From IMG/VR virus record IMGVR_UViG_3300014501_000547, positions 1 to 42,093 of that record: 42,093 bases of DNA. One strand, written 5' to 3'. The stretch is from a virus. How positions within the stretch are numbered: the stretch's first letter is position 1; each line of letters starts with the position of its first letter. This document shows positions 10,597 to 42,093 of this stretch, piece by piece. The notes beneath the pieces are model-generated. The model was not told the origin of the DNA, did no database searches, and saw only the letters and a program-made list of their open reading frames with translations. A program made the translations under genes and the position numbers.

Positions 10597-10662
10597 TTCT
10601 GTGCCTCGATGTCTCGGCCACACGGAAGGCTGGTTCGTGGCTCTATCCTCCCGGCAAGTGGA

Positions 10663-10694: not shown

Positions 10695-10697
10695 AGG

Positions 10698-19088: not shown

Positions 19089-20756
19089 TCAAAAGTTTTC
19101 ACTCCGGTCGAAAAGCCGTACGCCAGCCTGCTTTTCAAACGCTCGCGCAAGGAGCCAAGCACGGTCGCTGATAAAACTTTTGAAGCCGCGCTTGATGCTG
19201 CGGTCCCAGATCCCGCGATCCTTCTTGGACGGAACAAGGTGACTGCGCAACGCTAAGACTTGGGCTCGCTTGCTTTTGGGAACGTCCTCGAAATAACTCC
19301 TCGGCACCCGCTGACCAACGCTCCTATTGTCACGAGCCACCAGATAACAGATATTCAAGATGCTGTTAAACCTGTCCGGGCCAATGCCGTGCCGGGTCAG
19401 AAGCGCACGGGGGAAGATGTGGTGTTTGTCGCTGCTATTGCGTCGGCTTGAAGTTTCCCCATGCGGAATCAGCGAACCGTCGTCCAAATAGCGCGGCCCG
19501 ATGAGTCGGAGTAGGCAAAAGAACGCGTTGCTAACCGGCCCCGGCCGCCCGTACTCAGTACTTCGAAGAGAATGAATGCGAACCTTGACCTTAAACGAAG
19601 CGTGGGAGTTGGGATTGCTGGCCAGCCGTTTCGCGAAAGCTGCATCCGACGTCAGGTTCGGACGATACCCACGTCCCGTATATCGTGCTCCAACCCCTGT
19701 CGCCCAAAACCATTGGATCAATCGTCGCTTGGCGGACCGCGACGGTCTGACGTTGCCGTTATGGAAAAAGAAGAGCGAAAGGATCATCATCATTGGTTCA
19801 GAAGGCAAGAACTCAAAGTTGGGAACACCGAGCTCATACACGGCGTAGTCGGCGGCTGAGCTAATTGCCTCTCGTAGCTGGGGGAAGACCCGCTCGAAAC
19901 GTGCTCGCTCATGTTCATCAGTTTCCAGCTTGGAAATGAACCCATCTATCGCGCGTTCCCCCAAGTCGCGACTGCCAAGCGCAAGCGCGAACGTTTGAAG
20001 AATGGTCGTTCTGGAGATTCGATCGAAGCCATGCTTGAGACGACTCTGTACATCGCGCACTAAGCCACGCATGTCAAATTGTGAAGCCCGGGCGAAGGCC
20101 CGATCGGCAGCACCGATCCGCATCCCCAAGGAATTGATTCGGATGAAGGTCTCGCGGACTTCACCACGGTCCTTTGTTTCGCAAAATTCGAGCAGCGCCT
20201 CGTACCCGAGCACGCGTCGCCGGCAATCCTCAAGCCGTTTCATAGCGCGAACGCCGTGGCCGCGCGAACGCCTTCGCCAGGTATTGGACAGGAGGTCAAC
20301 GACCGACACGAGCGTCTCACCCTGGTCTCGACTCAGATGCTCGCGGTAAAGAAATAGTCCGTCGCCTTCGGAAGCGTACGGATTAAAGAAAACGTTGCCG
20401 AACTTGAGGGCCTTCCCTTCCTCGTTGACGACTGATCCGCCTTCTCCTCGCAGCAAGTGCCACAGAACCGAGAGACGTTGTTGCCCGTCAATCAGGAAAT
20501 AGATGTCCCGATTCTTCGGATTGAAGTGGGGAAGGATGTGGTAGTGCTTCCGGAGTTGGTTTTCGTTGCGACGGTCAGTCTTCCAAATGAGAATCGTCCC
20601 GATTGGGTAGTTGTGGTAGATGCTGTCGAGGAGATCACAAGCTTTGCGGGCATTCCAGACGAATTCTCGCTGCAATTCCGGCACGGCGAAGATGCCGCGC
20701 TCGATGAGGCCGTGAAGCTTCCTCAGCGTGACGGTTTTTACGTAGATGTCGTCCAT
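19089..20756 (-). CDS. DUF262/HNH (DUF1524-like) protein, GmrSD-type
   Basis: 555 residues from ATG 20756; an upstream TTG at 20786 is possible. N-terminal DUF262 (ParB/Srx-like NTPase fold) motifs are clear: VPELQREFVW (25-34), NYPIGTILIW (49-58) and FLIDGQQRL (87-95). Near the C-terminus, SSDKHHIFPRALL followed by Asn-containing segments is an HNH nuclease-like block as in DUF1524. The two-part architecture resembles GmrSD type IV restriction enzymes and other DUF262 defence proteins. It is transcribed against the late operon and less GC-rich than it, which points to an acquired gene with its own promoter. It ends 28 bp from the minor tail gene. Confidence 0.85.
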   Translation of the reverse strand: MDDIYVKTVTLRKLHGLIERGIFAVPELQREFVWNARKACDLLDSIYHNYPIGTILIWKTDRRNENQLRKHYHILPHFNPKNRDIYFLIDGQQRLSVLWHLLRGEGGSVVNEEGKALKFGNVFFNPYASEGDGLFLYREHLSRDQGETLVSVVDLLSNTWRRRSRGHGVRAMKRLEDCRRRVLGYEALLEFCETKDRGEVRETFIRINSLGMRIGAADRAFARASQFDMRGLVRDVQSRLKHGFDRISRTTILQTFALALGSRDLGERAIDGFISKLETDEHERARFERVFPQLREAISSAADYAVYELGVPNFEFLPSEPMMMILSLFFFHNGNVRPSRSAKRRLIQWFWATGVGARYTGRGYRPNLTSDAAFAKRLASNPNSHASFKVKVRIHSLRSTEYGRPGPVSNAFFCLLRLIGPRYLDDGSLIPHGETSSRRNSSDKHHIFPRALLTRHGIGPDRFNSILNICYLVARDNRSVGQRVPRSYFEDVPKSKRAQVLALRSHLVPSKKDRGIWDRSIKRGFKSFISDRAWLLARAFEKQAGVRLFDRSENF

Positions 20757-20801
20757 GGCTGCCTGGCTTTTACAAGTTTTCCGCAAAGAGACGGAAACGA
20801 T

Positions 20802-28300: not shown

Positions 28301-29147
28301 CCAGAACCTGGGCGTTGGATACGCGAGTTGGACAGCCCCGATTTCGATTGGCACGGTCAGCCCGCACGGTTTGTCCACGGGCCAACGCGCGATCCTCGCC
28401 GGCATCCGGGGAAACACGGCCGCGAACGGAGGCTGGCCGATCACCGTCACCGACGCGACCCACTTCACTCTCAATGGCTCCAGCGGGAACGGCAACTACG
28501 TGAGCGGCACTGGAACGTGCAGCGGCGGTGGGATGGCTTACTACGACGCCTACACCGCGCAGGCCGCGAGCACCGCGTTGGGCAGGTCCTTGGCCGCGTT
28601 CTACACCCAGGACGACGATCCCACCGTCAACGGATCGGCGGATGCGAACTTCCTCGCCAGCGTGATCAAAAGTCACATCGATTCCATTCGGGCCACCGTA
28701 CTCGCGAGCTATTCCGCCGCGAAGTTCGAGCTGCTCTGGCCGTACGACGTGAACTTCGCGACCTGCTATTACACGCCGGACGTCCCCTACCCGCAGGGCG
28801 GCCGCCTGAATCGCGCTGTCAATCTGCCGTCGCAGTATCTGGCCCAATCAGGCTCTGGGCTCGACCGCCTGAAAGTGGAATCTCTGTCGTGGGGATCGAC
28901 CTACCGAAACTTCGCAAACGCACAGAAAACAATCGCGTTTCCGTTCACCGCGCCCGGCAGTTGGCCGGTGACCGCGGCGGCGTACCTGGTGCCATGGTTC
29001 AACGGTGGCTGCCCCTGGCCGCTGGAGTACGTGTGCGCCCTTAGCCAGTCGATTCCACTCGTTTGCTTCTGGGCCTTCGACCACCTCTGCCTATTTAGTT
29101 GGCCGTTGCCGCTGCCGAAGGAACTCGGTCGCGCGACGTTTCTATGA
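25326..29147 (+). CDS. large tail protein, non-contractile tail sheath-like
   Basis: 1273 residues from GTG 25326, 6 bp after the hub gene. The N-terminus (IHKLEPHRTMYLRGFDRRGCAASLNNASASGLTVSGVFSDQADFVVLVLFDADDQFGHL) and the long beta-rich body are like siphovirus proteins annotated as non-contractile tail sheath. The C-terminal ~400 residues carry helix-strand segments such as TPWLQFGEFLWWFF and FELLWPYDVNFATCYYTPDVPYP, then LDRLKVESLSWGSTYRNFANAQKTIAFPF. These suggest a TIM-barrel or glycosidase-like fold. It would bind or degrade host surface polymers. It is the last phage gene visible. Confidence 0.65.
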   Translation: MPTEAIHKLEPHRTMYLRGFDRRGCAASLNNASASGLTVSGVFSDQADFVVLVLFDADDQFGHLFTTKYLPDFSLAGVTLDFDLATTNAQNPVSRKFQSVPWGALSYITKSETPGTISLLPMATSATGMAAASQTFTVNGTPALYDRVDLVYLSNIVYDYLVSTALSAGPSTVTFGFFNYLGTGYNHTITIGSNTYSHVQLSTDGSGDIAIALAAAINAANDPNATASVSANNVILAARTNSGASISCSASDGNGPGTLFESQGACPFIAAQLAGQINATNWAFLNPTIALMATVSGASFTVYAARYGTVNTSGTSVSFAAGQNFLGSQAGDPILINGVQYAIASVTSPTSVTLTTSAGTQTGVNYLAPGGGRDGNAIELLEMHKTSTAYLTPAGASKLTGGTDPSSVHFHIDFTTSGIDSLRQAWLTFAPALNYDSGSVNPALVAYQPSTWSAVFTNWTLSDPSSVLPLKIAGPGSVTVGSRDFWASFTGTGWSEQTGFYYRGFARQSSHSTDHVTVTYSCQYTHNLYLGTSLSSAGGELTTTLDGVAQPTIDTYADTTSPISTRRLLASSVAPGTHVVVLTVSGSHNSLSTGTSCCVDYLQAAVISDVQSPAVTYPNVNCACDFDTAQTYALAPARAFWILSKAGFAGDIDFYSGVFFALKRVRSGGSFHQAIVTISAGSSGFNLGSLYGDGDAMFLQVGGASYGDGLGTAFGAAVYPIDTVDTLALRFVNAINTLFVGISAAKTGTDQFTITTLSPVAGFTLFTNYAAGTGANGANPSTGSITVSGDIKAGNEGVWQVDASQSQPLNQAFTDYLADFCVQVHAAGQTMTVAFSQELLAPPDVNTAAGAWAQRFANGNQVLTDTGFGSWGTGFVEAVSGSSPITIQQTGHGYITGNTAHISSSTQSGVWAVTVTDANHYQLTTLISGGYTPGVGDATFIDLQTTQCTFNPSIVTPYLAACYTQVAAIMSTAGLTPWLQFGEFLWWFFSVVQNLGVGYASWTAPISIGTVSPHGLSTGQRAILAGIRGNTAANGGWPITVTDATHFTLNGSSGNGNYVSGTGTCSGGGMAYYDAYTAQAASTALGRSLAAFYTQDDDPTVNGSADANFLASVIKSHIDSIRATVLASYSAAKFELLWPYDVNFATCYYTPDVPYPQGGRLNRAVNLPSQYLAQSGSGLDRLKVESLSWGSTYRNFANAQKTIAFPFTAPGSWPVTAAAYLVPWFNGGCPWPLEYVCALSQSIPLVCFWAFDHLCLFSWPLPLPKELGRATFL

Positions 29148-29468
29148 TGCCGCCCAAGTTCAGCTTCTGTTCCCAGTCCTCCCCGTGTCACCACGTCAGT
29201 TATCATGGCCTTGTGACGTCTCCTTCGTTCGATCCAGCGAGGTTCTTCTCTAGTCAGCCATCTATGCCCGCTTGCTGGGAGTCGGCGTCGAGCACGGACG
29301 TATGGACTTCGCCGCCCGAGAGGCGAGCGCGGATTCCCGATTCAAGCGGCCAATGCCAGCCGGATCATCTCGCCGGGTTAAACAAACGGCGCGACCAGTC
29401 TTCGGCTATGGCACGATTTTGACGCTCAATGTTATGTTCGCGAACGCCACGATCGTCGCTTCACTGCA
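29148..29468. other. gene-free junction between phage and bacterial genes
   Basis: About 320 bases without a convincing gene. Several overlapping short open frames are present, but none has a ribosome site with recognisable protein. A perfect 6-bp inverted repeat ACGTCA (29193-29198) / TGACGT (29214-29219), spaced by 15 bases, could be an operator. No att site, tRNA or integrase is visible. The junction marks where the phage late genes stop. Confidence 0.5.
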
Positions 29469-30995
29469 TTGGTGGTTGAATTGAGGTCTTTCGACACCAA
29501 TGTGGCGCATCTCATACGCCTACTAGCCGATGCCAGTCCCACCGCCGCTGATTCGGCTGGCCTTCGGCTCATTGAGCAGGGCGCAAGAGTACTCCCCTCG
29601 CTCTACCGAGTTGCAAACGACGAAGCTCCCGCGATACGGCGTCGAGTCGCCTTCTTGATTGGCGAAATCGCATCCAAATCGAAGTCTGACGCCGAGATGG
29701 CGAGTTCGGTGCTATGCGGATCGCTGAGCGACGACGATTACAAAGTGCGACGCAACGCAGCGTTGAGCCTTGGCAAGTTGGGATGTCACGCTTCAACCGA
29801 GCCCATTCTTTTGCGCCTGCGGAGCGAGACAGACGAGCGCGTTAGAACGTCTCTCATTCTCTCGTTCGGCCACACCGCACAGCCCCAAGACGCGCCCCTC
29901 ATAGAGCAGATCACACCCAATAGCGACACAGAGAAACATGCTCTTGAGAAAGTAATCGATCGCTTTCGAGGTCTGAGCGGCAACGTCGCAAGAATAGAGA
30001 CGACCGAGGACTTGGCCAAAGGGGTCAGGCTGGAGTTGTGGTGTCGTGACGGCTTGGCCGACATACTAGCGGCGGAGGCGTCAGAAGCCGGGATCGCCTC
30101 CGTTCGCGTGCACGGGGATCGCGTGTTGATCACCCAATCGACGAATCTCGACTCGGTTATGAAGCTCCGCACCGCTCTTTATCCAGTGCTCGTATTTCAG
30201 GCTGACACGGATCGACCTGAGACGCTTGGCAAGATCTTCGCTGAATCCGCAGAGGCTAAGGCGATGGCGCATCTCACTGCGGGAGACTTGCTCCACTACC
30301 GATTGACGTTGGAGCTTTCAGCAGCTTTGTCCTTCCGAAAACGTGATTGGGTAAAACAGTTTGCAGGCACGGCAAAAGGGCTTGCGAACGCCGCGACTGG
30401 ATATTCCTGGGAACTTATAGTTCGGCGATCGGGACCTAAGACGATAATTGGCGCACGCCCTATGACGCCGGATTCACGCTTCGCTTACCGCAAGGCGGAT
30501 GTCCCGGCATCGCTGCACCCGACGTTGGCAGCGGCCGCTGTCAGATTCGTTCCCATCGTCCCGACCGACTCAATTCTGGATCCTTTTTGCGGAAGCGGCA
30601 CCCTGCTCGCGGAACGTGCTATGCGTGGCCCATACCGCAAACTAATAGGCGTTGATATCGAGGAGAACGCATTGAATGCGGCCAGACGGAACCTTGAGGG
30701 TTTGGCTGGCGTGTCACTCCTTAAAGAGGACTCCTGTAAGCTTCGGCTTGTCCAAAACGTCGATGTGATCATTTCCAATCCGCCCTATGGGCAGCGTGTC
30801 GGGAGTCCGGCCGGCGCCAGACAACTACACGCTTCATTCGATTCTCTCGCTTCTCGCGTCCTCCGAAAGGACGGCATCTTGGTCGTATTCCGACCGCTCC
30901 ATTTTGCTCCCCCCAATGAAATGAAAATAGAAGGAGTGCATCGGGTTGACGCAGGTGGTATTCCCGTCAATCTGATAGTAGCGAGAAACGTTTAG
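29469..30995 (+). CDS. HEAT-repeat / THUMP-like RNA methyltransferase (UPF0020 type)
   Basis: Up to 508 residues; the start is uncertain (TTG 29469, GTG 29472 and TTG 29481 are all in frame). Residues ~1-140 hold three HEAT-like helical repeats (IRRRVAFLIGEIAS, KVRRNAALSLGKLG, RVRTSLILSFGHTA). The middle resembles a THUMP region (LELWCRDGLADILAAEASEAGI...VHGDRVLI). The C-terminal Rossmann domain has SAM motif I DPFCGSGTLLAERA near 370 and the catalytic NPPY at 437-440, preceded by YRKADVPASLHPTLAAAAVRF as in RlmL/Trm14 relatives. NPPY enzymes methylate exocyclic amino groups of guanine or adenine. HEAT fusion is unusual. RNA is the likely substrate. Its place beside the biosynthetic genes raises the question of self-resistance. 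Confidence 0.8.
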   Translation: MVVELRSFDTNVAHLIRLLADASPTAADSAGLRLIEQGARVLPSLYRVANDEAPAIRRRVAFLIGEIASKSKSDAEMASSVLCGSLSDDDYKVRRNAALSLGKLGCHASTEPILLRLRSETDERVRTSLILSFGHTAQPQDAPLIEQITPNSDTEKHALEKVIDRFRGLSGNVARIETTEDLAKGVRLELWCRDGLADILAAEASEAGIASVRVHGDRVLITQSTNLDSVMKLRTALYPVLVFQADTDRPETLGKIFAESAEAKAMAHLTAGDLLHYRLTLELSAALSFRKRDWVKQFAGTAKGLANAATGYSWELIVRRSGPKTIIGARPMTPDSRFAYRKADVPASLHPTLAAAAVRFVPIVPTDSILDPFCGSGTLLAERAMRGPYRKLIGVDIEENALNAARRNLEGLAGVSLLKEDSCKLRLVQNVDVIISNPPYGQRVGSPAGARQLHASFDSLASRVLRKDGILVVFRPLHFAPPNEMKIEGVHRVDAGGIPVNLIVARNV

Positions 30996-31053
30996 ATGAA
31001 GGAATCGGCGATCGGCGCGACACAGGGGCGATAGACGCTAATGAAGGAATCGG
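30996..31053 (+). repeat. duplicated gene start, ATGAAGGAATCGG direct repeat
   Basis: ATGAAGGAATCGG occurs at 30996-31008 and again at 31041-31053. The copies are 45 bp apart and in the same frame. The first opens a 12-codon reading frame ending in TAG at 31032-31034; the second is the start of the Cys-rich protein gene. The first ATG follows directly on the methyltransferase stop (30993-30995). It looks like an imperfect tandem duplication of the gene start. Confidence 0.6.
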
Positions 31054-31262
31054 AAATGCGCCACCGACCGAAGAGGCGAGCGCTTTCGGACTCTGACTTG
31101 AACTCCGGTTGCGAGTTGTGTGGATGCCCGCTCTCGAAAGGAAGCCCTATCATCCAATGCAAAGTGTGCGGCGCGATAGTCGGCCCTTGTTGCTCGGCGA
31201 ATGACCAACAGCCGATGTGCATCGAGCATGGGGGCGAGTCTGGCGAATCCTCCAAAGGATAG
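31041..31262 (+). CDS. small Cys-rich zinc-binding-like protein
   Basis: 73 residues. After a basic N-terminus (MRHRPKRRALSD) come CxxCxC (24-29), CKVCGA, CC and MCIEH, arranged as a treble-clef or RING-like zinc site, and an acidic Gly/Ser tail. It is 45 bp after the methyltransferase stop, in the same direction, and 160 bp before a radical SAM gene. Function is unknown. A zinc-binding adaptor is the simplest reading. A Cys-rich precursor peptide is an alternative, because a radical SAM gene follows, but the even Cys spacing favours metal binding. Confidence 0.5.
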   Translation: MKESEMRHRPKRRALSDSDLNSGCELCGCPLSKGSPIIQCKVCGAIVGPCCSANDQQPMCIEHGGESGESSKG

Positions 31263-31349
31263 CCCTGTCTCCAGAGCGCCGTCAGCTTTCGGTTTTGGCA
31301 ACGCGACGTTCAAGGGTTCGACGTTAAGATCCATTCCTGGGCGAGAACT

Positions 31350-31366
31350 GATACGATCTTGGTATC
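31350..31366. promoter_or_regulatory. dyad upstream of the first radical SAM gene
   Basis: GATAC (31350-31354) and GTATC (31362-31366) form a 5-bp inverted repeat about 57 bases before the radical SAM start. It might be a small operator. Short enough to be chance. Confidence 0.15.
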
Positions 31367-31422
31367 GTCACTTATCGAATGTTCGCCATCGCCTGGTGGC
31401 AGCAGAATAGCAAGGACGTTCG

Positions 31423-32310
31423 ATGTGCGACTGTCGGGACCGCGCCGATCCGAGAATGGAATACTCAATAAGGGACGGAAAGATCCAGACGTATGGCCTG
31501 GAGATTCAAGCTGCCGAGCACTGCAACCTGAGATGCGCCGGCTGTTCCCAAAGTAGCCCTTTCTTGCCTTCGCGATTCCCTGACCTTGATCTTATAGGGA
31601 AGAGTTTAAGCATCCTCTCGGGTGTCCTGCACGCTGATCGTGCAACGATCCTGGGAGGGGAACCCCTACTAAACCCTCGCCTCAATGACCTGTTGCGCCT
31701 CGTGCGCAGAAGCGGCGTCTTTGACCGGATTCACGTTACCACCAATGGAGTTTTGCTCAGCGCGATGGATTCAGACTTCTGGGATTTAGTGGACGTGGTT
31801 GAAGTTTCAGTCTACCCACCCACCCGCGACAAGATTTTTCGGTCGAGCGGAGAACTTCTGAAGCGAGCTTGGTCGTCAAGTACTGAAATGCGCCTCTTTC
31901 CCTCGCCCGTGTTTCGCCACATTACGCTGACGGAACCAATTGAAAACGAACGCCAGGTTCAAACCATTTACGATAAGTGCTACTTTCGCCATTACTGCCA
32001 CACTCTCCACGATGGGCATATCTACAAATGCGGCCCGAGTACCCACCTCCCCGACTTGATTGCGCGCGTAGGCAGTGATCCCATTGCCACACATGATGCC
32101 GTGATTCGTGTGGACGATGGACCGAGTCTTCAAAACCGCCTATTGGAGTTCTTTCGGAACGAGCGACCAATGGAGGTATGCCGGTACTGCTTGGGGTCGA
32201 GCGGAGCCGAATACCCGCATCGGCAACTGTCCCCCGCTGAACTGATCACGCCAACTCGGGTTCGCCTCTCAGCGGCGATCCTCAGAGACCCACTCATGGC
32301 TGAAGAGTAG
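31423..32310 (+). CDS. radical SAM protein with SPASM-like C-terminal Cys cluster
   Basis: 295 residues, ATG 31423 with AAGGA just upstream; a second ATG at 31456 is less supported. The radical SAM [4Fe-4S] motif is Cys34-x3-Cys38-x2-Cys41 (CNLRCAGC) and the SAM-binding GGEP is at 78-81. Further strands DRIHVTTNG and VVEVSVYPPT fit the partial TIM barrel. C-terminal cysteines 186, 192, 203, 253 and 256 resemble a SPASM/twitch auxiliary cluster site. Related enzymes are common in glycan and antibiotic clusters; the substrate here is unknown. It lies convergent to the minus-strand radical SAM gene (120 bp apart). Confidence 0.85.
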   Translation: MCDCRDRADPRMEYSIRDGKIQTYGLEIQAAEHCNLRCAGCSQSSPFLPSRFPDLDLIGKSLSILSGVLHADRATILGGEPLLNPRLNDLLRLVRRSGVFDRIHVTTNGVLLSAMDSDFWDLVDVVEVSVYPPTRDKIFRSSGELLKRAWSSSTEMRLFPSPVFRHITLTEPIENERQVQTIYDKCYFRHYCHTLHDGHIYKCGPSTHLPDLIARVGSDPIATHDAVIRVDDGPSLQNRLLEFFRNERPMEVCRYCLGSSGAEYPHRQLSPAELITPTRVRLSAAILRDPLMAEE

Positions 32311-32430
32311 GGTCGACAAGATCGCCCGCGCCTCTCCAGCATGAGCATGTTTCGGGATCTCAGCGTCGAGCATCTCACGATGTGAAGGTCTCCGATCCAA
32401 GCCACCGCACCAGCACTCGCATCGCGATAA

Positions 32431-33510
32431 CTAAACGCTCACTTTAACTAGCTTAGGCTCCAATAGATCTTCAAAATCAATGAACCGATTGCGGTAGCAC
32501 CATGCGCATTCGCTGAACAGAGGTGCCTCGCTCCTCCTGGTGCCGCAATGTTCACGCCGAAGATCTACCCAAGCGTCGCCATTCCAGATCTTTTCGAAAG
32601 GATCGCTCTGAAGATGTCCAAGAATGAAGGGATCTCCATGCGGCCCAATCAGATGGTCGCAGAAGCCGACTCGACCATCATACGTGACGTGGCAGTACAT
32701 CCAAGGATGAATGCACGCGGGACCGGCAGCATCTAGCTCGAATTGGCCTTCCCACAGATTGGACGTCTGAAACACCCTGACACCGGCATGTCGAGCCTTC
32801 ACCCTTAGCCTTTCCAACACTACCGGGAAACTTCTCTCTTGCCCGATAATGCTCAAAGGGCTGACTGGTTCGACGGTAACCGGAGCCAGAAAGATATCGC
32901 CGATGCCTGCCGCCTCCGCAAGAGAAACAATTTCATCAAGTACGTTCAGGTTCTTTCTTTGGCAAGTTACGTACAGTCGCAGACGGTCGGTGAAACCCCT
33001 TTGCTTATAGCCGTTTGCCAAAACTGTTAAGTTATCCAGAATCAGCGCTAGGTTTGCGCCGCCGCGGATGTCCTTAAGCAGCTCATCGTCCGCTGCATCC
33101 ACCGAAACGCCGACATAGGCACCGGCCTCAATGAGAGCGTTGAGCACCGCCGGTCTTCGAAAGCTAAGATTCGTAACGAGTCGGATGTCACAGCCATAGG
33201 CGAGAGCACGTTCCATTCGCTCCGAAAACTCAGGCAGAATCAGGCTCTCGCCCCAACCGCGGAGGTCCACCAGTTCCGCACACGGAAACAGTTCCTCCGC
33301 AACGAGCTCGAAAAGTTCACTGCTCATCGTTTCGGACTGCGACACTGAACCCGCGGATCGGCACATTGGGCAGGACAGATTGCAGTATCGAGTGAGCTCA
33401 ACGAAGACAACCCGCGGTCTTGCACGTAGCCTAACGGAACCCGCGGCATACTCAGCCCTGGCGGTCGCGGCGTTCGCGTCTTTCTGTACTCTGTAGGGAC
33501 TATCCTTCAT
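32431..33510 (-). CDS. radical SAM/SPASM enzyme, candidate aminocyclitol dehydrogenase or epimerase
   Basis: 359 residues from ATG 33510, which overlaps the stop of the upstream gene as ATGA; a GTG at 33519 is the alternative. Radical SAM motif Cys43-x3-Cys47-x2-Cys50 (CNLSCPMC), a GGE-like RGWGES segment, and VSVDAAD. The SPASM domain has Cys266, 273, 284, 322, 335 and 338 (CIHPWMYC, VTYDGRVGFC, CAWC), sufficient for auxiliary [4Fe-4S] binding. Enzymes with such clusters include BtrN, which oxidises an amino-deoxy-inositol alcohol to a ketone, and peptide maturases. Coupling to the aminotransferase gene favours a small-molecule role. Substrate is inference. Confidence 0.85.
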   Translation of the reverse strand: MKDSPYRVQKDANAATARAEYAAGSVRLRARPRVVFVELTRYCNLSCPMCRSAGSVSQSETMSSELFELVAEELFPCAELVDLRGWGESLILPEFSERMERALAYGCDIRLVTNLSFRRPAVLNALIEAGAYVGVSVDAADDELLKDIRGGANLALILDNLTVLANGYKQRGFTDRLRLYVTCQRKNLNVLDEIVSLAEAAGIGDIFLAPVTVEPVSPLSIIGQERSFPVVLERLRVKARHAGVRVFQTSNLWEGQFELDAAGPACIHPWMYCHVTYDGRVGFCDHLIGPHGDPFILGHLQSDPFEKIWNGDAWVDLRREHCGTRRSEAPLFSECAWCYRNRFIDFEDLLEPKLVKVSV

Positions 33511-35483
33511 TGTATCCACGCACCGACATTCGAAAAACCGCCAAGCCTATAACGCAACGTCGGACGCATCGAACACGCCACCGGTACAGCGTTCAGTCGC
33601 AAGGCGCGCAGCATCTTGTCGTCTTCTCCAACGCACGTATCAAGTTCCTTGCCATCGTACGACGTCTCTAGCCCTAAAGCTGTAATGAGATCTCGGGGAA
33701 ACAACCAACAGCCCATGTCGACCATTCCGACATCCCGCCCATCCACGAGGGCGCTGACCGAGTCCCGCACAACTGCACTTCCGGGAGAGAGCAGCCCGGC
33801 CCGTGTTGCGTCTTCGAAACGGTTCAACCTCTCTGTTCGCGTCCTCGCCCATGGGAATTCGTGGAGAGGCAGTGGGTCACCATTCGCACAGACGACCGTT
33901 CGCCAGCTATGGCTCGCGGCCGCGGCATGATCAATCAGGACTTCATAGAGGGACGAGAGGTGATCGACCTCCCACTGGTTGTCGTCGTCGAGAAAGCAGA
34001 CAAAATCGCTGTCGACTAAGGATAAAGCGAAATTTCGGAGGTGCGCAACTCGTCGCACACTCGGCAGTTCGTCAAAGGAGGCCCCCCTGACCGTGTATGA
34101 ATAGATGGGGGTCCGCGGACACCGATGTCGCAGACGGTCCAGATCGACTTCGAACCCGTTGTTCACAACAAAGACTGCTCGGTCCAAGGTAGAGTCCTGA
34201 TCCCCAACGGAGGCGATTGCACCTTCCAAGAGTTCAGGTCGATCGCGGGTCAAGATTACGACCGCTACCCTTCGACGAGGCCGTGAGCGCGGAACTTGTT
34301 GAATGGACCGTTCGTCTGCGCCAGATATCAGCCCGTTGGCAAGGCAATCAATGTGTTCTTCGGAGGCCAAGAAAGCCCAATGGGGAATCAAGACCCACCT
34401 GCGCTGAAGTTCATCATCTCCAGCGAAGTCGGCGATCGAGGTTGCCGACGCGGCGGCAGAGTAGAGAGGGATCGTCGCAGGTCGGTAAAGAGGTGAACAC
34501 GGAATCGCCGGATAAACAAAGTCACACCCCAGCCCCAATTGCGTTGAGAGATACTCTCGGAGCTTCTCGGCGGACCAACCGGGGATGGCAATTGGAAGGC
34601 CATAGAACGCCCCGTCGGCGAGCACGGCAGGATCGCATGCATACAAAACCCGGGAAGTAGCTAAGCGGTCCACAAAGCGGCGAAGGCGCTTTGCACGAAT
34701 CGCAAGCTCTTCGTCTAAAGAGGTTAGATGAGCTAATGCAATCGCTGCCTGCATCTCCGACATAGCATGATTTGCCCCATGCAACGTATTTGCGGGAATC
34801 AGGCTTCCGGTTGAGTAATCCCAAATCCTCGAATCTGCCGATAGCGCAGCAAGCTTGGCCGCAATTGTCGGATCGTCCGTGAGGGCGCAGCCGCCTTCAC
34901 CACAGGTGAGAAGCTTCGAGGCCTGCAAACTGCAAATTGATATGATCCCTTTACTTCCGGCTTTCCCATCATTAAGACGTGCCCCGTGGCAGTGTGAAAA
35001 GTCCTCGATTAGGGGGATGCCGCTGAACCGCTCCGTGATGCGGTCGATCTCAAGCCGCGAAGCATACGTGTGGACGGCCAGGATGACTGAAAATTCCTCT
35101 GGACCGAACGCATCGACGTCCCCTATAAAGCTATCCGGCTTGCATGCGCAGAATACAGGCGTCGCACCGACCCGCAGGACTGCGGTGGCCACACCAACCC
35201 AAGTCATCGCCGGCAAAAGGACTCTATGGCCCGGCCCCACGCCAAGCGACTGGAGGGCGATTACGATCGCGCTCGATCCAGTCAGTGTCGTTACTCCATA
35301 CTTACGTCCACAGTACAGGGCGAATGCGCTAGCGAACAACTCCCGGTGGGACGCGTATGGCGTGCGAGGCCCGGCCACCGCCCATCTGCCGGACAAAAGC
35401 GACAGGGCTAACGTTTGCCGCTTCAGGTCGCTTGACGAAGGCCACCGAGGCCATTCGGGGCGCTCTAAGTTCTCTTCACGCAT
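33507..35483 (-). CDS. DegT/StrS aminotransferase fused to a GT2 glycosyltransferase
   Basis: 658 residues from ATG 35483; an in-frame extension to 35654 overlaps the divergent gene and looks noncoding. Residues 1 to ~395 are a PLP-dependent sugar/cyclitol aminotransferase with TGSSAIVIALQSLG (68-81), IEDFSHCHG (159-167, Asp161 pairing with PLP) and the Schiff-base Lys190 in SLQASKLLTCGEGG. The GEGG ending is typical of the StsC/BtrR and AHBA-synthase branch. Residues ~404-658 are a GT-A glycosyltransferase: VAVVILTRDRPELLEGAIASV, FLDDDN (498-502, metal-binding DDD) and a late GED-like GEDDKM. The two-domain fusion is unusual. The next gene overlaps by ATGA. Confidence 0.85.
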   Translation of the reverse strand: MREENLERPEWPRWPSSSDLKRQTLALSLLSGRWAVAGPRTPYASHRELFASAFALYCGRKYGVTTLTGSSAIVIALQSLGVGPGHRVLLPAMTWVGVATAVLRVGATPVFCACKPDSFIGDVDAFGPEEFSVILAVHTYASRLEIDRITERFSGIPLIEDFSHCHGARLNDGKAGSKGIISICSLQASKLLTCGEGGCALTDDPTIAAKLAALSADSRIWDYSTGSLIPANTLHGANHAMSEMQAAIALAHLTSLDEELAIRAKRLRRFVDRLATSRVLYACDPAVLADGAFYGLPIAIPGWSAEKLREYLSTQLGLGCDFVYPAIPCSPLYRPATIPLYSAAASATSIADFAGDDELQRRWVLIPHWAFLASEEHIDCLANGLISGADERSIQQVPRSRPRRRVAVVILTRDRPELLEGAIASVGDQDSTLDRAVFVVNNGFEVDLDRLRHRCPRTPIYSYTVRGASFDELPSVRRVAHLRNFALSLVDSDFVCFLDDDNQWEVDHLSSLYEVLIDHAAAASHSWRTVVCANGDPLPLHEFPWARTRTERLNRFEDATRAGLLSPGSAVVRDSVSALVDGRDVGMVDMGCWLFPRDLITALGLETSYDGKELDTCVGEDDKMLRALRLNAVPVACSMRPTLRYRLGGFSNVGAWIQ

Positions 35484-35672
35484 GATAGACTCTCGAATTG
35501 GTGCTTCGGCACCATCGCAGTTCCCGATTGTAGTACAGCGAGAGAATGGTCTGTTCTGGTGGTGGGCCTGATCTCGCCAAGGCACACTACCCGCGGGCAG
35601 CGGGCGGGTGTCGTTTTTGCGCCTGCCATACCCCAGAATGGCGATTCGCGGCAAAAGGGGCCGCTGGGTCTA
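35484..35672. promoter_or_regulatory. divergent promoter region between the two biosynthetic units
   Basis: 189 bases separate the starts of the minus-strand fusion gene (35483) and the + strand inositol phosphate synthase (35673), so both units must be transcribed from here. A perfect hairpin GGTGC-TTCG-GCACC lies at 35500-35513, within the leader of the minus-strand gene. On the minus strand TACAAT near 35530 could be a -10 box, but its -35 is poor. No confident promoter can be named. Confidence 0.4.
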
Positions 35673-36875
35673 ATGAAAGCGCAAAAAATCGGTGTTTTCT
35701 TGGTAGGAATCAACGGATCGATTGGGACGACCGTGACGTCCGGAGTGTACGCGGCAGCGCGGGGCCTCGTGACGCCTCACGGACTTGTCACCGAACTGCC
35801 AGGAGTAAACTCCCTCTCGTTGCCGCCCTTGGCGGATCTTCGTTTCTATGGCTGGGATCTCAGAAGCGAGCCACATCTGAATCGGGTGCGGGAGCAACCA
35901 CATATCCCGCTTAGCTTGACAGAGCAGATAGCGCCAGAGCTTTCCCGTGTGAGAGTGCTGCCAGCACCGAGGGTCGGCGTCAGTACCCGGGTGCTTGGCT
36001 TGTCTCGCGTACCCGACGCAACTGCAAAGGGTTCCCGCTCCGACGCGGTGTACTCAATAAGGGCGGCGATCAGGGATACCATCGCAGAGGAGCAACTCTC
36101 AGGAGCAGTGCTTGTGAACATCGCCTCGACGGAGCCATTCGCCGGGTTGATGCCAACACATCAGAGCATCGGACAATTTGAAGAGGGACTGGCGAAAGAC
36201 GATCCGGCCATAAGCGCTGGGATGCTTTACGCCTATGCAGCGCTGGCAGCCAAGGTTCCCTATGTAAATTTCACTCCGAGTACGACAGTCGATATTCCTG
36301 CTTTGATGGAGTTTGCGGATGTTCAAGGCGTCGTGATTGCCGGAAAGGACGGCAAAACAGGGCAGACCCTTTATAAGACGGTATTGGCGCCGATGTTCCA
36401 GTTGCGAAACCTGCGCGTGTCGGGATGGTACAGCACAAACCTGCTCGGCAACGATGACGGGTACGTGCTCAGTGATCCGGCTCATCTTCAGCAAAAGGTT
36501 GCGAGCAAACTAGAGGCTCTAGCGCCGATTCTTGGCTATGACGATGTTGACCATCAAGTGGACATCCACTATTACGCTCCGCGTGGCGATGCGAAGGAAG
36601 CCTGGGATGTGATTGATTTCGTTGGTTGGCTCGGTGCCAAGATGTCGATGCGCGTCAATTGGTTAGGCCAGGACTCAATCCTCGCCGCTCCCCTCGTGGT
36701 TGACCTCGCTCGCCTTGTTTGGTTTGCTCAGCAACGGGGAGAGAGAGGGCCGGCGACTCAACTTTCCGCCTTCTTCAAAACGCCTCTGAATACGCGCGAG
36801 CACAATTTTTTCGAGCAGACGCGAAATCTCATGATGTACTGTGATTCGGCATCGCGCCGTAACGGTGGCGACTGA
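35673..36875 (+). CDS. inositol-3-phosphate synthase
   Basis: 400 residues from ATG 35673; an upstream start at 35559 would overlap the divergent leader and adds no family sequence. The NAD-binding motif is GVFLVGINGSIGTTV (7-21). Conserved blocks follow: VNIASTEP, VPYVNFTPS, the lysine-rich GKDGKTGQTLYKTVLAPMFQLRNLRVSGWYSTNLLGNDDGYVLSDP, and late WLGQDSILAAPLVVDLARL. The enzyme cyclises glucose 6-phosphate to myo-inositol 3-phosphate with tightly bound NAD. As first gene of the + strand unit it would supply the cyclitol for the cluster. Length is normal for bacterial forms. Confidence 0.9.
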   Translation: MKAQKIGVFLVGINGSIGTTVTSGVYAAARGLVTPHGLVTELPGVNSLSLPPLADLRFYGWDLRSEPHLNRVREQPHIPLSLTEQIAPELSRVRVLPAPRVGVSTRVLGLSRVPDATAKGSRSDAVYSIRAAIRDTIAEEQLSGAVLVNIASTEPFAGLMPTHQSIGQFEEGLAKDDPAISAGMLYAYAALAAKVPYVNFTPSTTVDIPALMEFADVQGVVIAGKDGKTGQTLYKTVLAPMFQLRNLRVSGWYSTNLLGNDDGYVLSDPAHLQQKVASKLEALAPILGYDDVDHQVDIHYYAPRGDAKEAWDVIDFVGWLGAKMSMRVNWLGQDSILAAPLVVDLARLVWFAQQRGERGPATQLSAFFKTPLNTREHNFFEQTRNLMMYCDSASRRNGGD

Positions 36876-36922
36876 GCCTTCGTTGCGACCGAATCCAAGA
36901 TTCCAATGACGGAAGTTGGACC

Positions 36923-36970
36923 GCGCCTCTAGTTCCCAGATGGCCACCACCCAGACCCGTCTAGAGGCGC
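36923..36970. promoter_or_regulatory. perfect 10-bp inverted repeat before the glycosyltransferase gene
   Basis: GCGCCTCTAG (36923-36932) and CTAGAGGCGC (36961-36970) are exact reverse complements separated by 28 bases, ending 22 bases before ATG 36993. It could be a two-site operator or, in RNA, a large stem-loop controlling translation. The downstream gene lacks a visible ribosome-binding site, which makes a structured leader worth considering. No T-run follows, so it is not a standard terminator. Confidence 0.4.
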
Positions 36971-36992
36971 TGCGATATTATGGTTTGCTCCA

Positions 36993-38348
36993 ATGAATCC
37001 TGAACTGTCCGTCATCGTGCCGGTGCACAATAAGGCTTCGACGTTGAATCGTTTCCTCGACGCGATCACCGAGCAGACGGCGCTATCTGGGTGCGAAGTC
37101 ATTTTCGTGGATGATGGCAGTACCGACGGGAGCGAACGCATACTTCAGAATCTGCATGATGCAGAATGGGCCGTCGTCATTCAGCGGTCCGGAAGGATCG
37201 GGAGCGCCGCACGCTCGCGAAACCTGGCGCTTCGTCGCGCTTCTGCCGAAACGTGCCTCTTCCTCGATCCGGATGTCGTGTTTGGCAGCACTCTGTTTTC
37301 CTCAGTGCTGGAAGCCCTCGCCGTTGACAAGACGGCTGTCTTGCTTTTGCCGGTGATTGGAAATTCATCATCAGCATCTGTATGGCCGCTCCTTGTTCGG
37401 GACGCTGAAGGATGGGAGCCCATGAGCAATTCGCAACTGATGCATTGGGCCGGCACACAGAAGTCCCTGTCGGACTTCCGTCTGAGACTCTGTCGTAACC
37501 GCAACGGTGACCTCGGACATCTGCCTACCCCATGGACCCTCTGTTGGAGCAGCGGGATGGCACTCTCGCGGACATTGGCCCTTACCACAGGTGGTTTTAA
37601 CGAAGAGCTAGAGAAGAAAGGCTCTGAAGATATCGAATTTGCCTATCGTCTTCATCTACAAGGATCTCATTTCAGGCTTCTCGAACAACAACCCATCTTG
37701 CACTTGCCACATTCGCGTGACAGAAGCGCTGAAGAGAGACTCGACAGAACGCACGAGAGGCAAATGTTGGCTCTCTATCCCACCCGAGAGATGGAACTGT
37801 TCTGCGCGTTCGACGGTGAGCATGCAAACGTCCTGTATAAGATCCTCGCCCGGATTGACGGGAACTTTCTCCAAAGCCTCAATGACGCTCTCACACCTCC
37901 ACCCGTCATCGAGCACTTAGGACTCCCCCAAGATGGCGTACTGAGCGGCGCCACTCCCCGTTGGCTGTTGGACGCTACCCGACCGAGGAACGTGATTTCG
38001 CCTGTAGCTTCCACTCCAAGCGGGAGCTTGCCTCTTTTGGGGTTTGCCCTTCCATTCGACGACAATTCTCTACCTTGCGCGGTGCTGAGCGGACTCTGGC
38101 AGGTCCTGCCGGAACGGTTGGCGTGTCGAGTATTTGCGGAGAGCCTCAGAGTTGCAGCCAGGAGTTTCCTATTGAAAACAACCAGTGATTCTCTTCCCTC
38201 CGTCCCATGGCCAGACAGATTGCTACGGCTCAACGATGCCCCTTATTGGGAACGAACGCACAGAATCTCGCGATCATATTTCGATTACTCGATGCGGCTT
38301 ATGGGGAGTTCCGGAAGCCTGTCTTGTTATGAACTCACAGTAGTCTGA
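36993..38348 (+). CDS. GT2 glycosyltransferase with C-terminal methyltransferase-like region
   Basis: 451 residues. Residues 1-~250 are a family 2 GT-A glycosyltransferase: LSVIVPVHNKASTLNRFL, IFVDDGSTDGS (37-47), the metal-binding DPD (92-94) and the acceptor block GGFNEELEKKGSEDIEFAYRLHLQG. The last ~130 residues include FALPFDDNSLPCAVLSGLWQVLPERLACRVFAESLRVAARSFLLKTT. This resembles the second half of a class I methyltransferase (FPDNSFDAVLS...LxEFxRVLRPGG), but no glycine-rich SAM motif I is seen, so it may be degenerate. No ribosome site precedes the ATG. It would transfer a sugar to the cyclitol or an intermediate; donor unknown. Confidence 0.75.
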   Translation: MNPELSVIVPVHNKASTLNRFLDAITEQTALSGCEVIFVDDGSTDGSERILQNLHDAEWAVVIQRSGRIGSAARSRNLALRRASAETCLFLDPDVVFGSTLFSSVLEALAVDKTAVLLLPVIGNSSSASVWPLLVRDAEGWEPMSNSQLMHWAGTQKSLSDFRLRLCRNRNGDLGHLPTPWTLCWSSGMALSRTLALTTGGFNEELEKKGSEDIEFAYRLHLQGSHFRLLEQQPILHLPHSRDRSAEERLDRTHERQMLALYPTREMELFCAFDGEHANVLYKILARIDGNFLQSLNDALTPPPVIEHLGLPQDGVLSGATPRWLLDATRPRNVISPVASTPSGSLPLLGFALPFDDNSLPCAVLSGLWQVLPERLACRVFAESLRVAARSFLLKTTSDSLPSVPWPDRLLRLNDAPYWERTHRISRSYFDYSMRLMGSSGSLSCYELTVV

Positions 38349-38372
38349 GGCCTGCAAGTAACTAACCTAGTT

Positions 38373-40289
38373 ATGACTGTCTTGTCGCTTTATCCCCTTC
38401 CGATGATCTCTTATGCTCACGACGGAGCCGCGGCTCTGGTTAGCGAGACCGGGATCGTCCAGGCTTACGAGGAAGAGAGGATCAGTCGTCGTCAGCACTC
38501 CATCGCTGCTTTTCCTGAACAATCGGCGATGATTGCACTTGAGCGGGCAGGACTTAGGTCTCACGATCTCGATGAGATCGTTGTCACAAGTATGAATTCC
38601 TGCGACCGCCAGGGGGACTACCAGAGCAAGATCGAGTTCTTACGGGAGATTCTGCTCGTCGACACAAAGATCCCCGTCACATGCGTACACCATCACTTGG
38701 CCCATTCTGCACTGTCCGTACTGACCTCATCCTTTGAGGATTGCGCATTTCTTACCGTCGACGCAGGTGGGGATGGCCTCATGGGGCACTGCGGCGTATT
38801 CAAGCACAATCGTTTTGAGATCGACGAACACTTTCGCCTATCGCCAGGCATTCTTTACGCCTACATCACTTGCCTAGCTGGCTTTTCTCTATTTGAAGAG
38901 GGAAAGGTCATGGGCCTCAGCGCCTTCGGGACTGTAAATGATAGGCTCTACACTTGGCTTCGCCGCAATTTCTTCATCTCCAAGGGAAAGGCGGAGATGC
39001 AGACATCAGAAGCCGTTCGACTTCGTTGGGAATCGTCGCTCGTGCCGGAACGCTTTGATCCTGATACTCCGAGACGACACAAATACTACAAGCTGGGAGT
39101 GAGTTTCCACGAAGAGGGCGACGGTGAATGGCTTTCGAACATCGCCCCATGGGATGTGGCCGCCACCGGACAGTTGGTGTTTGAAGAGCTGATGCTGGAG
39201 GCTGTACACAATGTCATTGAAGCGACGAACTGTACACAGCTTGCCCTGAGCGGGGGGGCTTTGCAAAACGTACTGCTAGTTGACAAACTACACCGCCTTA
39301 ACGGTATCCGTGTGCACGTCCCCGTTGCACCGCATGATTCGGGGCTGGTGCTCGGTTCCGGATTGCTGCGAATCATGGAAACGACTGGAAATCGTGTCGC
39401 ATGCCAAACCCATCCTTACCTTGGCCCTTCCTTTTCTGTCCAACAGATCGAAGCTAGGATCAGAGCCTTTGGGCTACCTTACGTTGAGAGACCCGACCTG
39501 CCGATAGCGGCGGCGGATGAGATTGTGAAGGGGCGGACCGTAGGGTGGTTCTCGGGGCCAGCCGAATTTGGAGCAAGAGCACTCGGTGCGCGATCAGTAC
39601 TTGCAGACCCGAGAATTCCCACGGCAAGAGCGAGGCTCAACCAGACGTTGAAACGCCGGGATTGGTTTATGCCATACGCTCCGTCGATCTTAGAGGACCG
39701 AGGATTCGAGTACTTTGAAGACTTCTCCCCGTCCCCCTACATGAATAGAGCCTTTCGAGTTCGTCCCGGCAAGGGTGCCGAGATTCCTTCCGCGCTACAC
39801 ATTGACGGAACTTGTCGAGCACACTCTGTGAACGCGCGGACGAACCCCGCGTACTACGAGCTGATTTCGGAATTCGACCGCAGAACTGGAGTGCCCCTGG
39901 TCTTGAACACGAGCTTCAATCGACACGGGCTACCCATGGTGGCGACCCCGGACCAAGCTATACAACACCTGCTCGAAGGTAGTATCGACTGCCTCGCGAT
40001 CGAGAGGTTCATGGTTTATGCGCCGTCGCGACAACCGGATGCAAGCAGGATGCTCACGGACGACTGCTGTTTTGCATTAGATAAGCTGCGATTCGCGGCC
40101 GCATGTGTTGCCCGCGGGCAAGTCGGTCCGGCAGAGCACGCTCTGCGCGGATTGAAAATGGATGCTGCAGCAACATCAGATGGGCTCAAAGTCGCTGGAG
40201 CATGGATCTGGCGAATCGGCGATGATGTCGAGTCTATTCTAAACAAAGAGAACGGTTCGCGACTGATCGAGTTGCTGGAAGGTAGGTGA
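38373..40289 (+). CDS. O-carbamoyltransferase, NodU/TobZ family
   Basis: 638 residues, a usual length for the family. The N-terminal Kae1-like domain has YAHDGAAALVSETGIVQAYEEERISRRQH, the metal-binding VHHHLAHSALS (105-115; His107/His111) and TVDAGGDG. It continues with LALSGGALQNVL and GPAEFGARALGARSVLADPR. The C-terminal domain carries MPYAPSIL, LNTSFNRHGLPMVATPDQAI and DCLAIERF. In TobZ and NodU such proteins make carbamoyl-AMP from carbamoyl phosphate and ATP and move the carbamoyl group to a sugar hydroxyl. The final ~100 residues are an additional helical tail. The gene begins 24 bp after the glycosyltransferase. Confidence 0.9.
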   Translation: MTVLSLYPLPMISYAHDGAAALVSETGIVQAYEEERISRRQHSIAAFPEQSAMIALERAGLRSHDLDEIVVTSMNSCDRQGDYQSKIEFLREILLVDTKIPVTCVHHHLAHSALSVLTSSFEDCAFLTVDAGGDGLMGHCGVFKHNRFEIDEHFRLSPGILYAYITCLAGFSLFEEGKVMGLSAFGTVNDRLYTWLRRNFFISKGKAEMQTSEAVRLRWESSLVPERFDPDTPRRHKYYKLGVSFHEEGDGEWLSNIAPWDVAATGQLVFEELMLEAVHNVIEATNCTQLALSGGALQNVLLVDKLHRLNGIRVHVPVAPHDSGLVLGSGLLRIMETTGNRVACQTHPYLGPSFSVQQIEARIRAFGLPYVERPDLPIAAADEIVKGRTVGWFSGPAEFGARALGARSVLADPRIPTARARLNQTLKRRDWFMPYAPSILEDRGFEYFEDFSPSPYMNRAFRVRPGKGAEIPSALHIDGTCRAHSVNARTNPAYYELISEFDRRTGVPLVLNTSFNRHGLPMVATPDQAIQHLLEGSIDCLAIERFMVYAPSRQPDASRMLTDDCCFALDKLRFAAACVARGQVGPAEHALRGLKMDAAATSDGLKVAGAWIWRIGDDVESILNKENGSRLIELLEGR

Positions 40290-40290
40290 C

Positions 40291-41076
40291 ATGACGAATG
40301 CTATTGAGGACTTCTATGACCCACTGTTCTATGAGGCAAAGGTTGGCATAGGCGGCCGACCAACTGAAATCTATGTCGAAGAGAAGCTAAGTGATGGCCA
40401 GGTTCTCGAATTGGGGTGCGGTATCGGCGACATACTTCTGCCGCTAGCGCGTCAAGGTCTTCGAGTGTGTGGAGTGGACTCTTCGCAACCAATGTTGGAA
40501 GCATTCGGGCGACGGCTTGAAAGTGAGCCTGCTGAACTGCGAAACCGAGTCACGCTCGTGCACTGTGACATGCAGGAGTTCCAATCAACGGAGCGCTTTC
40601 AGAGGGTATTGATTCCCAACGATGGGTTCGCTCACCTTCTGGATGATGAGGCTCTATTGACGGCCTGTGGTGTGGCATTTCAGCACTTGGTGCCAGGCGG
40701 GCAGGTAGTCCTCGACACCACACCATACGACGTTCAATTCCTTGCTGGAATCGCCGGCTCTCAAAAATCGGTTTTTGTAGATCACGGCTACTACGAGCTA
40801 CCGAGCGGTGAGTTCGTTTTCGTTTCCGGAGCCGCCAGCTTCGAGACGAGTAGCGGCGTCTTAACTGTGCACTTTCGGTATGAGTTCGTCGGTGCCGATG
40901 GGGTTGTCAGGAGAGCTCACTATCGAAAGCTTAGACAGCATCCCAGGACGGCAGCGGAAATCCGGTTTGCCCTCATGACTGCTGGGTTCAAGGATGTTCA
41001 CGTCGAGGAACGCGCTCTTCGAGACGGAGAACAGAGGGTTGTCACCCGAGGCGTTAAGAGTGATGTGTCCGAGTGA
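40291..41076 (+). CDS. SAM-dependent class I methyltransferase
   Basis: 261 residues, one base after the carbamoyltransferase stop, with GGTAGG as ribosome site, so clearly in the same operon. SAM motif I is VLELGCGIGDILLPLA (38-53); the following acidic GVDSSQPMLEAF and VTLVHCDMQEF fit motifs II-III. The C-terminal half has a beta sheet (VLTVHFRYEFVGADGVVRRAHYRKLRQHPRTAAEIRFALMTAGFKDVHVEE) typical of small-molecule N- or O-methyltransferases of tailoring type. It probably methylates the aminocyclitol or sugar product; position unknown. Confidence 0.85.
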   Translation: MTNAIEDFYDPLFYEAKVGIGGRPTEIYVEEKLSDGQVLELGCGIGDILLPLARQGLRVCGVDSSQPMLEAFGRRLESEPAELRNRVTLVHCDMQEFQSTERFQRVLIPNDGFAHLLDDEALLTACGVAFQHLVPGGQVVLDTTPYDVQFLAGIAGSQKSVFVDHGYYELPSGEFVFVSGAASFETSSGVLTVHFRYEFVGADGVVRRAHYRKLRQHPRTAAEIRFALMTAGFKDVHVEERALRDGEQRVVTRGVKSDVSE

Positions 41077-41697: not shown

Positions 41698-41985
41698 CCC
41701 GTCTGTCCTGGGCTCCCAGAAATTATTTCCGGACTCTGCCCCGAGTGAGGACCGGGGATTTGCCCCTCGGGAGCCCTCGAAGCACATGAGGTTCTAGCGA
41801 ATTGTGAAATCAGTTCGGCGCTCAACTCCACAAAATCCATTCCGCCCGAACCTTACCGATATATCTATCCAGTGGGGTTTGACGGCCACGCACTTGTCTT
41901 CGTGGAAGCTTGAGGCCGTCCATTCGAAGAATCCGTTTCTCGGAAGACTTTCGACTACCGGGGGTGTATAGTGAGGAATCCGGTC

Positions 41986-42093
41986 GAAGCTGATCGCGAT
42001 TCCGCCGCGAAGCCGATCGGGATTCCGCTGGGAAGCCGATCACGATTCCGGGCTGAAGCCGATCAGTAATTCCGCCCGGAAGGCGATCAGTGA
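41986..42093 (+). repeat. 23-bp tandem repeats, likely IS21-type terminal array
   Basis: Four full units and a partial one: 41986-42008, 42009-42031, 42032-42054, 42055-42078 (one base longer) and 42079-42093, cut by the window edge. The shared core is GAAGCCGATCNNGATTCCG. Units are contiguous with no spacers, so this is not a CRISPR. Such arrays of related sites resemble the multiple transposase-binding repeats at IS21-family ends; an element would then begin just to the right. That link is from memory of such ends, not a match. Confidence 0.5.

Follow-up and report, generated by a model that had tools for sequence, protein, structure and literature searches.

Enzymes of the spectinomycin and hygromycin type are familiar from actinomycetes. 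Spectinomycin consists of an inositol-derived aminocyclitol joined to one sugar, and hygromycin B is built on 2-deoxystreptamine. Here we compare these systems with a locus at positions 31,423–41,076 of IMGVR_UViG_3300014501_000547, an IMG/VR virus record that is a single contig of 42,093 bases, called the window below. We consider it quite probable that the core of a biosynthetic pathway is encoded here, and that its product is an aminocyclitol related to spectinomycin and hygromycin B, derived from inositol and carrying sugar, carbamoyl and methyl groups. The locus most likely lies on a host chromosome beside a prophage.

Gene content and layout

The locus comprises seven genes, all of them open, full-length frames with strong family matches:

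31,423–32,310, plus strand: rSAM1, twitch radical S-adenosylmethionine (SAM) enzyme of the SpeY/HygY kind, 295 amino acids (Pfam Radical_SAM)
32,431–33,510, minus strand: rSAM2, radical SAM/SPASM enzyme (Radical_SAM and SPASM); ATG at 33,510, alternative start GTG at 33,519
33,507–35,483, minus strand: AT-GT, fusion of a DegT-family aminotransferase (AT; E 1e-49, about 34,299–35,483) and a GT2 glycosyltransferase (E 5e-10, about 33,507–34,298) in one frame, 658 amino acids
35,484–35,672, no strand: divergent promoter region of 189 bp between AT-GT and MIPS, from the flanking gene coordinates
35,673–36,875, plus strand: myo-inositol-phosphate synthase (MIPS), 400 amino acids (Inos-1-P_synth, NAD_binding_5)
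36,993–38,348, plus strand: second GT2 glycosyltransferase (Glycos_transf_2, E 9e-21)
38,373–40,289, plus strand: O-carbamoyltransferase of the TobZ/NodU kind, 638 amino acids (Carbam_trans_N/C)
40,291–41,076, plus strand: class I SAM methyltransferase (Methyltransf_25)

By layout these genes form three transcription units. AT-GT and rSAM2 overlap in an ATGA-type junction on the minus strand; MIPS, the second GT2, the carbamoyltransferase and the methyltransferase follow one another divergently on the plus strand with gaps of 117, 24 and 1 bp; and rSAM1 stands apart as a separate gene convergent with rSAM2. The first-pass annotation, made from the letters alone, had described only two divergent units. 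Its gene calls fared better: the StsC-like aminotransferase fused to a glycosyltransferase is borne out by DegT and GT2 domains in a single frame, and the inositol-3-phosphate synthase, second glycosyltransferase, TobZ/NodU carbamoyltransferase and methyltransferase all proved to be full-length frames with family matches. Of its two radical SAM/SPASM genes, rSAM2 does have the Pfam SPASM domain, whereas rSAM1 is of the twitch type without one. Scans of the locus for promoters and terminators gave nothing above chance.

Comparison with known aminocyclitol clusters

A genome scan and a tblastn comparison of all window proteins led to L025 and L010, two loci from Streptomyces in which homologues of AT, rSAM1 and the fused GT2 are neighbours. 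Other genes of L025 encode RmlA and RmlB, both above cut-off, a match to APH(9)-Ib (507 bits; cut-off 675), an IolG-like oxidoreductase, a class III aminotransferase and an N6/N4-type methylase; from the APH(9)-Ib match, RmlA, RmlB and the oxidoreductase it can be classed as a spectinomycin-type cluster. Both L025 and L010 encode a radical SAM enzyme near-identical to PDB entries 7wzv, 7wzx and 7x0b, which we take to be SpeY, the spectinomycin dehydrogenase. A third locus, L154 from Streptomyces sp. SAT1, holds homologues of AT, an N-methyltransferase, GT2 and rSAM1 in one region with APH(7'')-Ia, and by this content is classed as a hygromycin B-type cluster. The comparison with known aminocyclitol clusters that had been proposed at the outset thus finds AT, GT2 and rSAM1 homologues together in all three loci. 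This co-occurrence, with the placement of AT described below, lends good support to the earlier prediction of an aminocyclitol-containing product.

In the spectinomycin cluster, as in the window, a DegT cyclitol aminotransferase, a twitch radical SAM enzyme and a GT2 are adjacent, but the aminotransferase and GT2 are separate there and fused here. The window, whose right edge is cut, has no RmlA/RmlB, class III aminotransferase, IolG-like oxidoreductase, N6/N4-type N-methyltransferase or APH(9), and adds the SPASM enzyme, the second GT2, the carbamoyltransferase and the class I methyltransferase. The hygromycin B cluster L154 shares AT, GT2 and a HygY-type radical SAM enzyme with the hydrogen-donor cysteine; again AT and GT2 are separate, and no carbamoyltransferase is annotated in it. 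In contrast to the 2-deoxystreptamine-based hygromycin B, the window has MIPS. Clusters for 2-deoxystreptamine aminoglycosides are marked by the C-type gene for 2-deoxy-scyllo-inosose synthase (PMC5461906); none is found at the locus up to the cut right edge, which carries MIPS instead.

The AT-GT fusion, the SPASM enzyme, the second GT2, the carbamoyltransferase and the methyltransferase, judged by gene content, separate the locus from the spectinomycin and hygromycin B clusters, and it belongs to neither, since the window lacks genes that define these two clusters. The first-pass annotation had not recognised the combination. With spectinomycin and hygromycin B as relatives it is less unfamiliar than it had seemed, although it holds true that the full set matches neither cluster.

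A further likeness is found on a plasmid of Streptomyces sp. BB1-1-1, where one region (L155) contains AT, a GT2 of the same kind as the fused domain, a second GT2 and a TobZ-type carbamoyltransferase. That region differs from the window in its size of about 40 kb, its condensation/AMP-binding genes, several oxidoreductases and a GT4; neither a MIPS nor an rSAM1 homologue was found in it. L155 (NZ_CP134205.1, 325762-366481) and L159 from the same plasmid represent a large uncharacterised cluster in its own right, in which two DegT-type aminotransferases and a carbamoyltransferase are accompanied by a GT2 resembling the fused domain, several Gfo/Idh oxidoreductases, RmlA/B and an aminoglycoside phosphotransferase.

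The aminotransferase–glycosyltransferase fusion

In the PDB, the AT domain is matched best by glutamine:2-deoxy-scyllo-inosose aminotransferases (BtrR, 2c7t, and 5w71, 177 bits each); sugar aminotransferases and 3-amino-5-hydroxybenzoate synthase, the latter with 106 bits, score well below these two. A careful tree places the domain within a 15-row clade of inosose/2-deoxy-inosose aminotransferases with support of 100/100. This clade includes BtrR, an StsC-like protein encoded near an inosamine-phosphate amidinotransferase (L006), and the proteins of L025, L010 and L154. For the careful tree, a placement of AT among acidobacterial DegT proteins was rejected (p-AU, from the approximately unbiased test, 0.0025). 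In a quick tree of 100 rows AT falls into the corresponding clade with support of 99. The lysine that binds pyridoxal phosphate, K190, is invariant in the alignment and aligns with that of BtrR. These comparisons make it well supported that the AT domain is a cyclitol (scyllo-inosose/2-deoxy-inosose) aminotransferase. The GT2 domain is 32–35% identical to the GT2 enzymes of L025, L010 and L154, and the fusion suggests a direct hand-over of the inosamine to glycosylation. Searches with AT-GT of 396 Acidobacteriota and 200 Bryobacteraceae genomes gave matches to the aminotransferase part alone.

An alternative product would be a surface glycan or glycolipid: a polysaccharide or lipid containing inositol or an amino sugar, which the two GT2 enzymes, AT, the methyltransferase and the carbamoyltransferase would decorate and whose sugars the radical SAM enzymes would modify. 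GT2 transferases are usual in such pathways, and in phage contigs as well as Bryobacteraceae related radical SAM genes have glycosyltransferase genes as neighbours. We nevertheless regard this as unlikely: the window contains no Wzx/Wzy, polymerase, undecaprenyl-phosphate transferase or export gene, AT lies in the cyclitol clade apart from other DegT aminotransferases, and all plasmid matches of the fused GT2 come from Streptomyces, the best from the hygromycin B-type cluster L154 and the next from the BB1-1-1 cluster with its aminotransferase and carbamoyltransferase.

Cyclitol-type aminotransferases were also seen elsewhere. One in Mycobacterium innocens (L009:10001-11194) falls within the BtrR/StsC clade, and in two Micromonospora species (L013:10001-12462 and L080:10001-12353) an StsC-like aminotransferase is followed by an inositol-phosphate synthase in a biosynthetic-looking region.

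Radical SAM enzymes

The rSAM1 protein is 39% identical to the HygY-like protein of L154 and 34–35% to the SpeY-type enzymes of L025 and L010. When 72,556 plasmids were searched with it, the sole match was again the 39% identical protein in the hygromycin B-type cluster of Streptomyces sp. SAT1. Its CxxxCxxC motif is formed by C34, C38 and C41, and the auxiliary-cluster cysteines C186, C203, C253 and C256 are invariant in the alignment. Within the motif CHTLxxGHxxKC, C192 aligns with C183 of the HygY-like L154 protein, whereas the SpeY-type proteins of L025 and L010 have Ser183. We take the hydrogen-donor cysteine of HygY to be Cys183. Three Bryobacteraceae relatives carry a cysteine at this position as well, so the serine of the SpeY type looks derived.

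Going by the title of a 2021 paper cited in PMC10991966, a single cysteine switches between HygY-type epimerase and SpeY-type dehydrogenase. Since rSAM1 has the HygY-type Cys192 and not the serine of SpeY, it is predicted to be a sugar epimerase rather than a dehydrogenase. A variant of the proposed pathway would have rSAM1 act as a SpeY-like dehydrogenase, giving a keto sugar and, much as in spectinomycin, a fused ring. The 34–35% identity to SpeY-type enzymes and the adjacency of aminotransferase, radical SAM enzyme and GT2 in spectinomycin-type clusters speak for this variant, which we hold possible but doubtful given Cys192 in the place of Ser183 and the greater similarity to the HygY-like protein.

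The second enzyme, rSAM2, has its CxxxCxxC motif at C46, C50 and C53 and SPASM cysteines at C269, C276, C287, C338 and C341 (numbered from the GTG at 33,519). It is a SPASM protein without close relatives, and none occurs in the compared clusters; an oxidation of inositol or inosamine by this enzyme is conjecture. The predicted structures of the two radical SAM enzymes had a mean predicted local distance difference test score (pLDDT) of 41 (rSAM1) and 43 (rSAM2) and were not used.

A separate family setting was noted in Bryobacteraceae genomes (L170:3150-9656, L171:9499-17181, L172:3257-10300, L173:9462-15968). Their conserved cluster comprises a HygY-like radical SAM enzyme, an asparagine synthase-like amidotransferase, GT1-like and GT2 transferases, an unassigned protein of about 240 amino acids and a PIG-L deacetylase, without relatives of the window AT or MIPS.

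Inositol-phosphate synthase and tailoring enzymes

MIPS matches PDB entries 7nwr (E 1.5e-68) and 1u1i (E 7.6e-62). The lysines of the Archaeoglobus fulgidus enzyme have well-known catalytic roles, and all four are kept: K275, K279, K308 and K369 align with K274, K278, K306 and K367. The first-pass annotation had pointed out that the synthase could be a stand-alone housekeeping gene in relatives. Such a gene does exist, as MIPS is present in 97 of 101 Bryobacteraceae genomes, nearly always in single copy. The Bryobacteraceae proteins in the tree set are 72–93% identical among themselves and 39–43% to the window MIPS, which branches outside them. By this placement the window MIPS is of another lineage than the Bryobacteraceae housekeeping copy, a result that applies directly only if the host belongs to that family.

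Inositol-3-phosphate synthase is also part of a gene set conserved on plasmids of Roseomonas (L003:7980-17149), Methylobacterium (L002:8064-16743) and Hymenobacter (L004:7938-16639). It is accompanied by an HD-like protein, a methyltransferase, a Gfo/Idh oxidoreductase, a metallo-β-lactamase-fold protein, a YcaO-like protein, a TIM-barrel isomerase, a GT4 and a PIG-L deacetylase. Where matched, these genes are 41–69% identical, and some are unmatched in some plasmids; the combination of GT4, PIG-L and inositol is reminiscent of mycothiol.

The carbamoyltransferase matches TobZ, the tobramycin O-carbamoyltransferase (3ven, E 6.7e-56, 193 bits, residues 15–549). It shares the domain architecture, with both N and C domains present, and keeps the metal ligands HHLAH (HxxxH) and Asp322, but it is distant from TobZ in sequence and about 90 amino acids longer at the C-terminus. 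An identity as NodU, the Nod factor enzyme, was rejected on a score of 120 bits against the NF041651 equivalog cut-off of 1000, with no NodA, NodB or NodC adjoining. The methyltransferase matches PCZA361.24, CypM and CcbJ in the PDB, which are presumably N-methyltransferases, and is itself probably one. The second GT2 matches the GT2 domain of chondroitin synthase and has a C-terminal extension without a Pfam match. Carbamoylation and methylation of the product are suggested at the level of these families.

Proposed pathway

From these assignments we infer the order of steps, the substrates and the product. MIPS would convert glucose-6-phosphate to inositol phosphate, from which a housekeeping phosphatase, for which the window has no gene, would free inositol. 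One hydroxyl would then be oxidised to a ketone by rSAM2 or by a dehydrogenase encoded outside the window, the AT domain would turn this ketone into an inosamine by amination, and its GT2 partner domain would attach a sugar to the inosamine. Next, rSAM1 would epimerise a sugar carbon in the manner of HygY, abstracting a hydrogen atom and returning one from Cys192, and would not oxidise it as SpeY does. The second GT2 may add a further sugar, the carbamoyltransferase an O-carbamoyl group, and the methyltransferase would methylate an amino group.

Several observations weigh against such a pathway. The AT branch is long, so that its place inside the cyclitol clade is loose. In the rSAM1 tree the shortest paths lead to L154, L025 and L010, but the fork itself is without resolution, and the wider family occurs in other settings, namely the Bryobacteraceae cluster of AsnB, glycosyltransferases and PIG-L, and phage contigs (26–31% identity). 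The AT-GT searches of the 396 Acidobacteriota and 200 Bryobacteraceae found no other genome with the whole gene set. The window contains no inositol phosphatase, inositol dehydrogenase, nucleoside-diphosphate-sugar, transporter/export or certain resistance gene, and the contig ends 1 kb past the methyltransferase gene; the absent functions may be encoded to the right of the contig edge or supplied by housekeeping genes.

An AT-GT2 fusion with a HygY-type radical SAM enzyme in a probable soil acidobacterium would widen the range of organisms known as sources of aminocyclitols. The gene set is compact, its predicted product is carbamoylated and inositol-derived rather than deoxystreptamine-derived, and one residue, Cys192, would separate epimerisation from oxidation.

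Host DNA or phage cargo

To the left of the locus lie two further features:

1–29,147, plus strand: late region of a tailed phage, a neighbour outside the pathway (PHROGs)
29,469–30,995, plus strand: HEAT-repeat protein with an RlmKL/Trm14-like methyltransferase domain (UPF0020 and HEAT)

The late genes, identified with PHROGs, encode small and large terminase, portal, head protease/capsid, decoration, tape measure and tail proteins. Close phage contigs are 80–92% identical in the last tail protein, and their similarity to the window stops at 29,116–29,151, the end of its gene; from there on each contig differs. Relatives L103 and L110 terminate at the tail-gene stop, and in L106 an integrase gene begins 18 bp past the tail gene, while in L108 and L104 accessory sequences of about 2 kb and 1.7 kb, respectively, lie between the two. 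The ends of L103 and L110 and the integrase past the tail gene in relatives fit an attachment site that lies between these two genes; in an integrated prophage, host DNA would then begin where the tail gene ends.

Alternatively, the locus could be cargo of a temperate phage, inserted between tail gene and integrase where relatives hold other accessory genes. The integrase follows the tail gene in L104, L106 and L108, with about 2 kb of cargo of low third-position GC in L108; similarly low values are seen in accessory genes of the window phage itself (DUF488-like, DUF262-like); and no attachment core was detected, the window junction and related phages sharing only 11–12-bp matches, which is the chance level. 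Against this, 13 kb of cargo would bring the genome to about 60 kb, compared with roughly 49 kb estimated from the contig coordinates of relatives, counting the sequence that these have on either side. No relative of MIPS was found in viral contigs, nor of AT-GT, the carbamoyltransferase or the HEAT methyltransferase in single-protein scans of them. L103 and L110 stop exactly at the tail stop like trimmed proviruses, and third-position GC is 0.77–0.80 in the phage core genes but 0.56–0.61 in all genes from 29,469 to 41,076. After the cluster, at the right edge, four and a half copies of a 23-bp repeat (41,985–42,089) look like an insertion-sequence end. We therefore judge cargo to be improbable; that a near-complete aminocyclitol glycoside pathway travels in this way and endows a lysogenic host with a new antibiotic-like product appears slightly more improbable still. 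From the genome size estimate, the lack of a viral MIPS relative and the way relatives end or continue at the tail gene, the locus probably belongs to the host and adjoins a prophage.

As for the host, the larger tail protein has two relatives (39–40%) in one Bryobacteraceae genome (G001, locus L028), the sole matching genome among 247 Acidobacteriota. The HEAT methyltransferase, taken as a host marker, had no match in 150 Bryobacteraceae and one of 31% in Acidobacteriota. Acidobacteriota are a best guess, no more. The HEAT methyltransferase gene has the same third-position GC as the cluster and is a possible but unproven member of the locus; a role in self-resistance is speculative.

The related phages offer some observations of their own. 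In L108 (14065-15955) the genes between tail and integrase are those of an HD-domain-like phosphohydrolase and a 185-amino-acid protein, so this spot accepts cargo. Within the late region of the window, accessory genes with low third-position GC lie at 10,449–11,950 (DUF488-like and a neighbour) and at 19,089–20,786 (DUF262-like, minus strand); these labels are our assumption from reading the proteins, without a search, and the genes are possibly defence cargo. Around 19.1–20.9 kb of the window the related phages vary.

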